Positions 3,011-54,873 of a stretch of DNA of 56,806 nucleotides are shown in pieces; position 1 is the stretch's first letter, and every line of letters starts with the position of its first letter. The DNA is from Candidatus Methanomicula labiotermitis (lineage in GTDB: Archaea; Thermoplasmatota; Thermoplasmata; Methanomassiliicoccales; Methanomethylophilaceae), in contig WQZU01000006.1 of NCBI GenBank assembly GCA_009780575.1, forward strand, positions 1 through 56,806. The letters are read 5' to 3'. The notes beneath the pieces were generated by a model that saw only the letters and a program-made list of their open reading frames with translations, was not told the DNA's origin and searched no databases. The position numbers and the translations under genes are program-made.

Positions 3011-3529
3011 ATGACAAAGGACTTCACATCATCGATAAGGACGGTCGAGGATTGGCCGAAGAAAGGCATAAGTTTCAAGGATATCACAACATTGCTCAAG
3101 GATGCGGAATTACTGAGCGCATCGGTCGAAGAAATGGCAGCTCCCTTCAGAAAAGACAAAGTGGACGTTGTAGTGGGTCCGGAAGCAAGGGGTTTCATAT
3201 TCGGAGTACCGGTCGCATTGGCGCTGGGCACCGGGTTCGTCCCGGTCAGGAAAAAAGGAAAGCTTCCGGCGAAGACGGTAAGCGTCTCATATGAACTGGA
3301 ATACGGCACGGATACGCTGGAAATGCACGAGGATGCGATAAGAAAAGGTCAGCGCGTTCTTTTAGTGGACGATCTCCTCGCCACCGGCGGAACCATTTCC
3401 GCGGTAATGGAGATGTGCGAGAACATCGGAGCGGAAATCGCGGGTCTGTCGTTCATGATCGAACTGGAATTCCTGAACGGAAGAGAAAAGCTCGCAGGAA
3501 GGAAGATCAATTCGATAATCAAATATTGA
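3011..3529 (+). CDS. apt: Adenine phosphoribosyltransferase
   Basis: Salvages adenine to AMP using PRPP. The 172-residue protein has the family N-terminus [19 protein letters not shown], the flexible-loop region with [22 protein letters not shown], and the PRPP-binding signature [13 protein letters not shown] near residues 117-129. Start: the frame is open upstream, but the family begins near MTKDFTSS, and that ATG has GAGG five bases before it, so the extra 37 upstream codons are excluded. Archaeal hypoxanthine/guanine PRTases share this fold, but the motifs here match adenine PRT well. Confidence 0.93.
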
Positions 3530-9745: not shown

Positions 9746-12813
<3,068 letters not shown>

Positions 12814-51542: not shown

Positions 51543-51728
51543 TTATACACCTGTTCCGTCCATCGTGCACTCAATATAAGAATCATGCCATCGCCCCGAG
51601 ATACAAACGGTCGCGCCCCCACACGGCGCTCAACGGAATAAAGCCGGACAGAATCGTCAACCTTCAGCTATTCGGTTCTGAAACCGAAGTTTACGGGTAC
51701 ACATAATAATTGTCTGCGGACGACCCGA

Positions 51729-53060
51729 TCAACGATCACCATTGTTGTTCTGCATTCTCTGCAGCCGGTCTGCAATGCTCCAGACGGCATATCGCGGTAT
51801 GTACGTTACGACACTGCTGCCGGTAATCCTTTCCGAAGTTATTATTGCAACCTTCGGATCATATTTTTTTATGAATTCCGTGAGACTTTTCGTTTTATTA
51901 TTTCCAGCTTTTGCTTCTATCGGTACCATTCTGCCGTTGATCTGTGCAACGAAATCTATTTCCGCATTGCTTCCCGACCTCCAATAATACGGTATCTCCT
52001 TTGTAGACGAAACGATCTCATTCAGAACAAAGTTTTCCATTATCGCTCCTCTGAAACGATCATATTCTTTGTCTTTACTGAATGCGAAATTCGGCGGCAT
52101 TCCCGCCATTCTCCTGAGTACGCCTATATCTGCCATATAGACCTTGAAACTGGTGTTGTCTGCGAACATTGACAACGGAACCTCCGGAGGATCGACCTTT
52201 TTCACCTTGTAGACAAGCCCCGCATTCACCAACCACTCCAGGGCATCCTCCAGATCCCTTGATCGTGATCCCGTCTTGACGTGACTGAAAATGAATTTAT
52301 TATTCTCCTTTGCCAATTGAATCGGTATGGATCCCCATATCAATGTCAATTTCGATATATTCTCCGAAGAATGATTTGCAATATCGTCCCTATAATCCTT
52401 TATTATGGCGTCAAGGATTGCATCGATTTTTTCAATATCCCTTTCAGCGTTCCATGATGCGACTGCGGCAGGCATTCCGCCGATCAGGAAAAAGTAATCG
52501 AGATATGTGTTCAATTTAGTGACAACCGGTTCCGAAAGCACCTCTGTGCTGATGTTATCTTCGTTGTCTATATACTCCACCAAAAGGTCTTCGGAACCGG
52601 CAAGCAAGAACTCTTTGAAGTTCATCGGAAACATTTTCAGCCGATCGACCTTGCCGACAGGAAAAGAATCGGCCTTGGAGAGCATAACGCCCAGCAAGGA
52701 TCCCGCGCACGCGACATGGTATTCCGGTGCATTCTCGCAGAAGAATTTCAGAGAAGTGAGCGCGCGGCCGCACAATTGTATCTCATCCAATATAAGCAAG
52801 GTCTTCTCGGGTTCTATTTTTTTCGCGCGCATAAAACCGAGTCGATCCGTTATTCTTTTCGTATCAAGGTTATTCCGGAAGACATCAGAGAGCTCAGGGT
52901 TGTCTTCGAACGTGAAGTACGCAACATCATCATAATTTTCTTCTCCAAATTTTTTCAGTATATACGTCTTCCCGCATTGTCTGACTCCTTCCAACAGTAA
53001 CGGCTTACGTGTTCCGCTCTTCTTCCATTTCAGAAGCTCATCGTAGATCATTCTTCTCAT
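51729..53060 (-). CDS. AAA/DUF4143 family ATPase with nuclease-like C-terminus
   Basis: A 443-residue protein of the widespread AAA_14-DUF4143 group. The ATPase part has Walker A LEGVRQCGKT and Walker B LLILDEIQLCG, then CAGSLLGVML. The C-terminal DUF4143 domain carries YYWRSGSNAEIDFVAQ and PIEAKAG, a D-x(n)-ExK pattern of PD-(D/E)XK nucleases. Start: ATG of MRRMIYDELLK; in-frame ATGs two and six codons earlier are possible. The gene is preceded on its own strand by 3.5 copies of a 33-bp tandem repeat. The family is often mobile or multi-copy; function is unsettled. Confidence 0.88.
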   Translation of the reverse strand: MRRMIYDELLKWKKSGTRKPLLLEGVRQCGKTYILKKFGEENYDDVAYFTFEDNPELSDVFRNNLDTKRITDRLGFMRAKKIEPEKTLLILDEIQLCGRALTSLKFFCENAPEYHVACAGSLLGVMLSKADSFPVGKVDRLKMFPMNFKEFLLAGSEDLLVEYIDNEDNISTEVLSEPVVTKLNTYLDYFFLIGGMPAAVASWNAERDIEKIDAILDAIIKDYRDDIANHSSENISKLTLIWGSIPIQLAKENNKFIFSHVKTGSRSRDLEDALEWLVNAGLVYKVKKVDPPEVPLSMFADNTSFKVYMADIGVLRRMAGMPPNFAFSKDKEYDRFRGAIMENFVLNEIVSSTKEIPYYWRSGSNAEIDFVAQINGRMVPIEAKAGNNKTKSLTEFIKKYDPKVAIITSERITGSSVVTYIPRYAVWSIADRLQRMQNNNGDR

Positions 53061-53097
53061 AGACATAAATTGAATCATTGTTCTGGTATATCTGGAT

Positions 53098-53214
53098 TGC
53101 GTTTTCGGGACGAATAATTGACAGTTTCACTGCGTTTTCGGGACGAATAATTGACAGTTTCACTGCGTTTTCGGGACGAATAATTGACAGTTTCACTGCG
53201 TTTTCGGGACGAAT
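53098..53214. repeat. 33-bp direct tandem repeat, 3.5 copies
   Basis: Three identical 33-bp units occupy 53098-53130, 53131-53163 and 53164-53196. An 18-bp partial copy ends at 53214. There are no spacers. Each unit contains TTCGGGACGAA, a short inverted repeat (TTCG-N3-CGAA), followed by TAATTGACAGTTTCAC. The array lies 38 bp before the DUF4143 ATPase start on that gene's 5' side and ends 17 bp before the trm1 stop. The zero divergence means recent expansion or strong homogenisation. Confidence 0.97.
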
Positions 53215-53230
53215 GATATTGCTACCGTTG

Positions 53231-54328
53231 TTACCTGGGCATTGCTTTGTAAGCGGATATTATATCTTTCAGGTCGAGGTCCGTTTTGAATGAGGCCGGC
53301 GAGACATGTGTTCTTGAAGCGTTTCCGATGCCGTTGAGCGCATTAACGAAATCATCAATGGGGGGCGGCGAGATCTTCAGAAAGGAGGAAAGCTCACTGA
53401 TGTCATATATGAAAGGGACGGCGTCCAGTTCATTTTTCCACGTTCTGAGCATCTTATCGCACTTTTTTTCCATGGCGGTTGAAGACGGATCCATTCTGCT
53501 CAGATGCGCTGAACTGTGCAGGCTGCCGCCCCAGAATGGGCCGTATTTGTGTTCGGAGTCATATTCGCTTGAATACGAACGCTCTAACGTGTTCGGATCG
53601 TATTTAACATACACAAGCTTCGAAAGAGTACGGTCGGCGTTCTGAGCGCCTTCCGTAACGCGTACGTACGTCCTGAAATAATGATCCGAATAGAACGAGA
53701 GCATAGGTTCCATACCTCTGTCAAATTTTGCCAATTCTTTGGCAATCGAGCACATGAGTATCCTCAGGCCCATTTCATGGCACATCGGTCCTCTGATGGG
53801 TCTGGATCGATACCTTCGCTCGCATTTAGCTCTGTGTGCACCCGCCAGCGGAGCCGTGTCCGTTGCCGTTATAGCCAATATGCCTTTCTTCCTGCATCCT
53901 CTTATCGCAGGCTGTATGAAATGCGCCGGCGACCCGAAAGGGTCGATGTCCACGTAATCGAACGCCTCTTCGGAGAAAAGCACATTCAGATCCTTATTGG
54001 ACGCGCGGCAGTTCACCAATCTGTTCAATTCGATATTTGCATTTATGAAATACATTGACGCGGGATTCATATCATTGGCCACGACCTCCTTTGCGTTGGG
54101 GACCTCGTTCGCTATCCTGGTCGCTCTGGAACCGGTTGCCGTCATTGCATCCGCCACGGTTATCTCGTTTTCCAATGCGCGGAGGAACATGACGCTCACG
54201 TCGCGATTGAACGCCATCTGTTCGTTGAAAAACACTGAAGCGGTCCTTTTCCCGGGGCCGTTCTTGGAATGTTCGAAAGGAACTATGAGCTTCGTCCCGC
54301 CTTCCGTTATTTCCATTATGTCGGGCAT
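53231..54328 (-). CDS. trm1: tRNA (guanine(26)-N(2))-dimethyltransferase
   Basis: Dimethylates G26 of tRNA with SAM. The 365-residue protein has EGGTKLIVPFEHSK, VFFNEQMAFNRDVS, the SAM-binding ADAMTATGSRATRIA, VVANDMNPAS, the catalytic YVDIDPFGSPAHFI and ATDTAPLAGAH. Start: ATG overlaps the TGA of the upstream NTPase gene (ATG in GTGATG); a GTG one codon earlier is possible. The C-terminal domain is of the archaeal length. Co-transcribed with the NTPase. Confidence 0.94.
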   Translation of the reverse strand: MPDIMEITEGGTKLIVPFEHSKNGPGKRTASVFFNEQMAFNRDVSVMFLRALENEITVADAMTATGSRATRIANEVPNAKEVVANDMNPASMYFINANIELNRLVNCRASNKDLNVLFSEEAFDYVDIDPFGSPAHFIQPAIRGCRKKGILAITATDTAPLAGAHRAKCERRYRSRPIRGPMCHEMGLRILMCSIAKELAKFDRGMEPMLSFYSDHYFRTYVRVTEGAQNADRTLSKLVYVKYDPNTLERSYSSEYDSEHKYGPFWGGSLHSSAHLSRMDPSSTAMEKKCDKMLRTWKNELDAVPFIYDISELSSFLKISPPPIDDFVNALNGIGNASRTHVSPASFKTDLDLKDIISAYKAMPR

Positions 54329-54873
54329 CACATATTTTCTCCGTTCATGAGACGAATGATCTTATGCGGAAGCAGATTCCTATTGGTCGGCGTTACCTCA
54401 AGTATTCTGACGTCATCCCTTCTCCTTATGTCCTGAAGCAAAGGGTTCCTTGATTTTTTATGAAGGGTGAGTATCATCGGTTTACCCGCATCCAGCGCAA
54501 ACTTCACGGCATCGATGAACGGCTGGCTCTCAACTTCCACTTTACCGACTTCGTCAATGACGATGACGTCGCATGTTTCGCAGGCATCGCGTATCGCGCT
54601 CACTGCCACCGACTCAAACTTTGAAAGATCCACGCCGATCTTCCCGTCCATGATCTTACTTTCAATATCGATATGCGCAAAGACCTGGCTCTCCATGGTG
54701 ACAATGTTGCGCACAGAGAATCCGACCTTACGGCGGCCGTCCGCTATCGGTTCATTTATCATCCCGCCTATTTTGAGTTCTTCGGCGCCAAGCATCTCTA
54801 TCACCCGGAGAAGCGTCTTCGTTTTCCCTGCTCCGGGCAGACCTGTGATGCCTATCTTTATGTCCGTTATCAT
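54328..54873 (-). CDS. THEP1-type nucleoside-triphosphatase
   Basis: A 181-residue P-loop NTPase. Walker A is GLPGAGKT (10-17), followed by GGMINEPIADGRRKVGFSV, and Walker B VIVIDEVGKVE. The length and motifs match THEP1, an archaeal/eukaryal NTPase of uncertain physiological role. GAGG lies about seven bases before the ATG. The gene overlaps trm1 by one base. The intergenic region upstream has one TTTAGGTAA sequence, a single half-site of the DtxR-like box. Confidence 0.88.
   Translation of the reverse strand: MITDIKIGITGLPGAGKTKTLLRVIEMLGAEELKIGGMINEPIADGRRKVGFSVRNIVTMESQVFAHIDIESKIMDGKIGVDLSKFESVAVSAIRDACETCDVIVIDEVGKVEVESQPFIDAVKFALDAGKPMILTLHKKSRNPLLQDIRRRDDVRILEVTPTNRNLLPHKIIRLMNGENM

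Follow-up and report, generated by a model that had tools for sequence, protein, structure and literature searches.

What does a perfect 33-bp tandem repeat do directly upstream of an archaeal ATPase gene? The question was raised by a 56,806-nt stretch of contig WQZU01000006.1 of Candidatus Methanomicula labiotermitis (hereafter the window), in which Tandem Repeats Finder located an array at 53098-53214 with a period of 33, 3.5 copies, 100% match and a score of 234. The runner-up tandem array in the window scored only 53. Three units and half a fourth had been noticed 5′ of the ATPase gene in a preliminary description of this DNA, and the program recovered precisely that. The features concerned are as follows.

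53098..53214, strand not assigned: array of three perfect 33-bp tandem units and an 18-bp part of a fourth
53098-53130, 53131-53163 and 53164-53196: the complete units, followed by the partial fourth at 53197-53214
53085..53092, minus strand: TATA-like stretch GATATACC, immediately 3′ (gene direction) of the last unit, placed by eye
51729..53078, minus strand: 449-residue ORF of an AAA_14-DUF4143 ATPase, PADLOC phage-defence candidate PDC-S01
53231-54331, minus strand: trm1

The array consists of three copies of TGCGTTTTCGGGACGAATAATTGACAGTTTCAC followed by TGCGTTTTCGGGACGAAT; in the orientation of the ATPase gene (minus strand), each unit reads ATTATTCGTCCCGAAAACGCAGTGAAACTGTCA. It lies between two minus-strand neighbours, trm1 (stop codon 53231) and the ATPase ORF. 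Within the array, exact matches to the palindrome TTCGGGACGAA stand at 53104, 53137, 53170 and 53203; elsewhere the 1.37-Mb assembly has a single one, in an ORF on contig C10. The gap between array and start codon depends on the ATG chosen, being 19 nt for that of the longest ORF (53078), 31 nt for ATG 53066 and 37 nt for ATG 53060. ATG 53060 is favoured because homologues begin MxR, and it is probably the true start; the distance of 38 bp given previously depends on this choice. A degenerate single copy of the unit, TGCATTTTCGACACGAATAATTT, was observed on contig C37 of the same assembly (10222-10244; L012 1501-1523), at an intergenic position with no DUF4143 gene immediately adjoining.

The protein was assigned using curated profiles and structure prediction. 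Both domains scored above their curated cut-offs (DUF4143, 110.1 bits against 28.1; AAA_14, 96 bits against 27), in line with the AAA/DUF4143 identity proposed earlier, and PADLOC profile PDLC04786 (PDC-S01) matched residues 5-437, the whole length, with E 7.2e-155. The following parts were delimited.

52965..52988, minus strand: Walker A GVRQCGKT, residues 31-38, with G31, R33, Q34, G36 and K37 invariant
52134..52367, minus strand: predicted winged helix, residues 238-315, the candidate DNA-reading part, from AlphaFold models and structural comparison
51795..52070, minus strand: predicted PD-(D/E)xK nuclease fold, residues 337-428, with E348, E373, E388 and K390 invariant

An AlphaFold model obtained with 17 window, Lachnospiraceae and viral-contig sequences had a mean pLDDT of 87.6. 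Residues 1-326 of the model resembled archaeal ATPase_2 structures (2qen, Z 17.3, rmsd 4.4, 273 aligned residues; 2fna, Z 15.9) and STAND NTPases (CED-4 and plant NLRs, Z 13 to 15), with Orc1/Cdc6 more distant. For the C-terminal half alone, winged-helix matches were the DNA-binding regulators CymR and IscR (Z about 5) and nuclease-fold matches were Can2, McrBC, EcoT38I and Hjc (Z 5 to 7.4); each of these values is weak by itself, yet they are consistent with the invariant E...E-x-K residues. With Foldseek alone, this half had no match below E 0.001. The E-x-K motif, already pointed out in the preliminary description, is invariant in the alignments. The ATPase is thus predicted to join a STAND-like AAA+ module to a winged helix and a PD-(D/E)xK nuclease. 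In its passage on PDC-S01, an archaeal immunity survey describes an ATPase joined to PD-(D/E)xK, with 9986 archaeal and 29 494 bacterial copies, and reports phage-activity assays as pending for most PDCs (PMC12988326).

Upstream regions of related genes were then scanned for self-similarity. The first scan took in 250 bp upstream of each DUF4143 start codon in the archaeal family, with one genome per species and a threshold score of at least 26/40. Out of 96 usable archaeal regions, 58 passed, all with a period of 33 (37 loci) or 32 (21 loci), while no coding control passed. The extended scan, open to every period between 20 and 60 bp, added 15 bacterial plasmid loci, 15 distinct viral-database contigs and one Lachnospiraceae locus. 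Of these 126 regions upstream of DUF4143 ATPase genes, 77 passed, with period 33 in 48, 32 in 28 and 42 in one. Dinucleotide shuffles passed in 6 of 630 cases, at scattered periods, and regions upstream of other ORFs in the window in none of 72. With the threshold dropped, the best period was 32 or 33 in 96 of the 126 regions.

Periods of 32 or 33 were found in 57/95 archaeal, 10/15 plasmid-borne and 8/15 viral-contig loci and in the single Lachnospiraceae locus, and after dereplication by protein distance in 71 of 115 loci. Since all groups are positive and the dereplicated figure holds, the association of array and gene rests neither on clones nor on one lineage. Period-32/33 arrays therefore precede most of the DUF4143/PDC-S01 ATPase genes examined, in archaea and in bacteria, as a cis element of fixed spacing. 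The archaeal part of this sample is Methanomassiliicoccales; the loci were the top of similarity lists, so that distant family members are less represented, and the assemblies are fragmentary. About 40% of the DUF4143 upstream regions fell below the threshold, some of them with one unit or strongly diverged units. In the search of viral-contig proteins, the single Lachnospiraceae protein as query gave no match and an alignment as query gave 20 loci. The open-access papers searched yielded no previous description of such arrays.

The sequence of the unit behaves differently from its spacing. Close copies of the window unit occur within the family in this genus only, in 3 of 8 species, and some lie away from any DUF4143 gene. 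When the four central bases were relaxed, matches adjoined close DUF4143 homologues in G003, G036, G046 and G032, and three tandem copies appeared upstream of a DUF4143 ATPase gene in a Lachnospiraceae bacterium. A reading of the motif as a dispersed genus-specific repeat was dropped, as the relaxed motif fell beside DUF4143 genes. Searches of plasmids and phages for sequences closely related to the window array gave no meaningful match, because sequence diverges faster than spacing.

Units from 65 loci, aligned in gene orientation, share one architecture in archaea and bacteria: they begin A/T-rich, continue with a variable 5-7-bp block in which most of the G+C lies, and then read AAAA(A)nG[TC][GA], or AAAA(A)nGYR. 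Examples are ATTATTCGTCCCGAAAACGCA in the window, ATTATTCGATGGAAAAACGTGG in Collinsella, CATTTTACCCCCCTAAAAGTAGA in archaeal paralogues and the nearly palindromic CACTTTTATGCGCATAAAAATGTA in Acinetobacter. The A-run provides the most conserved columns. The variable block is common to the units of one locus, and it changes from locus to locus and among the paralogues of a genome. The element that is conserved is accordingly not the palindrome TTCGGGACGAA put forward in the preliminary description, whose unit is confined within the family to the genus, but the spacing together with the AAAA(A)nGYR block beside a locus-specific block. The presence of the motif near other DUF4143 genes had been proposed as a check; the exact motif is nearly absent there, the relaxed motif and the periodicity are present, and a literal reading would mislead. 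When windows were picked blind to the core, agreement between adjacent units was 0.868 in the core versus 0.790 in the linker, a difference reached by random registers in 5 of 2000 trials. Distance between units was weakly coupled to distance between proteins (Mantel r 0.097, 27 of 2000 permutations), some units being mis-registered. Slippage may maintain the likeness of units, but core and spacing are under selection of some kind.

The position of the array is likewise constrained. The median distance from the end of the last core to the start codon was 36 bp in archaeal loci and 34 bp in bacterial and viral loci. By eye, a TATA-like stretch such as GGAAAATGCAAGCCAGCAAAATATTAATA often follows the array directly in archaeal loci, and in several bacterial loci, e.g. 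those of Acinetobacter and Fusobacterium, the array extends into a hexamer resembling a -10 element; a sigma-70-type scan of the bacterial loci was too noisy for promoter placement. As in a direct-repeat operator, at least two direct repeats thus stand beside the gene's promoter, as positioned by eye, and are conserved with the gene. The spacing of 32 or 33 bp corresponds to about three helical turns, as had been calculated for the cores of the window, and places the sites on one face of the DNA. In G048, array and ATPase gene are about 1.1 kb apart, an apparent exception explained by an insertion with IS630-like transposase ORFs between them, as judged from the sequence (L026 2831-3870, G048:C1). 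In G032:C1, the array is inverted relative to the adjoining DUF4143 gene and lies about 150 bp before that gene at 3454 (L083).

Array and gene also share their presence and absence. In the sister genome G006, trm1 is followed by a few dozen bases and then purA, with neither array nor ATPase gene; homology with the window stops at the trm1 stop codon and restarts about 20 bp before purA. The corresponding insert is as follows.

~51563..53230, strand not assigned, ends approximate: array, ATPase gene and 3′ flank, absent from the trm1-purA junction of G006

Both being absent from G006, array and gene arrived or were lost together. The insert contains one gene, the ATPase, and neither a transposase nor an integrase. 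Across the loci seen, no neighbour gene travels with array and ATPase, and no conserved transposase, integrase or replication gene lies alongside. Downstream of the gene, where a transposon would carry a related copy at its other end, a unit match was found in 1 of 14 loci. Arrays of two units standing alone, with neither a DUF4143 gene nor a remnant of one in the stretch examined, were found in G003:C13 (L003 1501-1556) and G004:C69 (L002 1501-1564); one of these solo arrays precedes a DUF6577 gene, which is followed by an AbiEii-like gene. Copy number varies between strains, a comparison that had been suggested from the window: among Vibrio coralliilyticus plasmids, those of OCN008 and RE22 carry three units and that of RE98 one.

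In the 1.37-Mb assembly to which the window belongs (G000), 23 DUF4143 matches were counted, a large expansion of PDC-S01-like genes for such a small genome. Several of these paralogues are preceded by arrays of unrelated sequence, with periods of 32 and 33. A second DUF4143 subfamily, whose proteins start RTEYLDRL- or RDTYLNRL-like, has period-39 repeat pairs in two members (L170, contig C51; L172, contig C5), and no arrays were found for the 'KWCGKT' subfamily of this genome.

If a gene-specific array accompanies one gene through both domains, its reader must be either the general transcription machinery or the product of that gene. We are highly confident that the array functions as a cis element of the DUF4143/PDC-S01 gene family, and it is probably a control switch of the ATPase gene itself. 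That it is, more precisely, a cis-acting control element serving as a cooperative autorepression operator read by the ATPase appears reasonably likely. The ATPase is favoured as reader by the locus-specific block, by the several differing arrays per cell and by the predicted winged helix, and the own product is the simplest specific reader because no neighbour gene travels along; cooperative autorepression is suggested by sites three turns apart on one face, beside the promoter. We infer that a protein binds the array, that this protein would be the ATPase and that the effect would be repressive. The control element would belong to the ATPase gene and travel with it, and would typically offer two to four binding sites on one DNA face, 32-33 bp apart, directly upstream of the gene's own promoter and partly overlapping it. 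The ATPase may read these sites via its predicted winged helix, its AAA+ domain bridging neighbouring protomers, and occupied sites would hold the promoter down. Site sequences specific to each paralogue would prevent cross-regulation among the many copies in one genome. The idea of a binding platform or operator, voiced in the preliminary description, thus gains from the arrays before most DUF4143 genes examined and loses the exact palindrome as its conserved element. Counted against the ATPase as reader of an operator are the roughly 40% of regions below threshold, the weak Mantel coupling, the solo arrays, the inverted G032 array and the one-unit Vibrio plasmid; in addition, the winged helix of a STAND protein need not bind DNA.

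Three further readings were considered. The array might be the self-address of an immune switch, on which the ATPase-nuclease would be parked as an inactive, self-repressing oligomer until released by infection; infection or competing foreign DNA would then free the ATPase, so that expression would rise and active nuclease would be set free, while paralogue-specific arrays would insulate the many copies of one genome from one another. We regard this as unlikely. We give a similarly low chance to a phased A-tract or upstream promoter element read by the host (RNA polymerase, TFB/TBP or nucleoid proteins), i.e. a portable promoter to which the ATPase does not bind: the conserved A-run, a spacing that keeps A-runs in helical phase and can bend DNA, and the location upstream of the start codon all fit, but a host factor needs no gene-specific sequence, whereas the G+C-bearing block differs between loci and paralogues, and one layout stands before archaeal and bacterial promoters despite their different machineries. 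In Tn7, multiple TnsB sites lie at the end, TnsC is an AAA+ ATPase and TnsA a nuclease. A comparable recognition or assembly site for mobility of the ATPase or action of its nuclease, akin to TnsB sites or iterons and distinct from a promoter operator, would accord with the joint absence in G006, with the solo arrays and with the fusion of an AAA+ ATPase to a predicted PD-(D/E)xK nuclease, as in TnsC plus TnsA. It is nevertheless quite improbable, since the array stands at one end, no conserved mobility gene accompanies it and its distance from the start codon is held within limits for which a mobility site has no need. The insertion-site idea of the preliminary description gains no support either, as array and gene are missing together from G006 and a downstream copy is rare.

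Two further explanations are very improbable. A functionless minisatellite, made and kept by replication slippage alone, would account for the perfect identity of the window units and for three units versus one in the Vibrio plasmids; it leaves unexplained why 76 of 77 arrays have a period of 32 or 33, why they stand before the ATPase gene and why cores agree better than linkers. As a full explanation, slippage is refuted by the fixed period across unrelated sequences. The divisibility of 33 by three and the three of six frames that are open through the window array could point to a repeated peptide, if not to a structured RNA or a degenerate CRISPR array. These readings were rejected: the window array has no Rfam match and folds no better than its shuffles (z -0.25), the ATPase frame has stops inside it, many arrays have a period of 32, and no unique spacers occur, the window units abutting one another and being identical over the full 33-bp period.

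AAA+/STAND ATPases acting on repeated DNA sites are familiar from MalT-type STAND regulators and Orc1/Cdc6 initiators. Their AAA+ and winged-helix parts are structurally similar to those predicted for the ATPase, but they are transcription activators or replication initiators and lack a C-terminal nuclease. In plasmid iterons, helically phased direct repeats lie near the gene of the protein that reads them; the window array is chromosomal, with trm1 and purA as its neighbours and no recognised replication gene, and the ATPase resembles Orc1/Cdc6 by fold only. A defence locus controlled through serial direct repeats in its promoter is known from RptR, which represses an RM/DarTG defence island and for full repression needs at least two repeats (PMC12255303). 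RptR, a small dedicated repressor, has a single conserved site of 6 bp, TAGCTA (PMC12255303), whereas the DUF4143 units are longer, spaced at 32-33 bp and variable between loci, with the ATPase-nuclease as sole candidate reader. The likeness to PDC-S01 itself is a whole-length protein match with ATPase and PD-(D/E)xK parts; the passages on PDC-S01 in two reports treat it as a defence candidate and mention no upstream array (PMC12988326, PMC13356809).

The array supplies a defined DNA ligand for each ATPase and hence a handle for a direct test of autoregulation. Dozens of natural protein-site pairs could reveal the code by which the winged helix reads its sites, and gene plus array form an added mark for recognising PDC-S01 members and tracking their transfer. 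Separately, a different dispersed palindrome, TTATTCACCGCATTTTTGCGGTGAATAA, was observed in four species of the family (L019, L069, L074 and L076).
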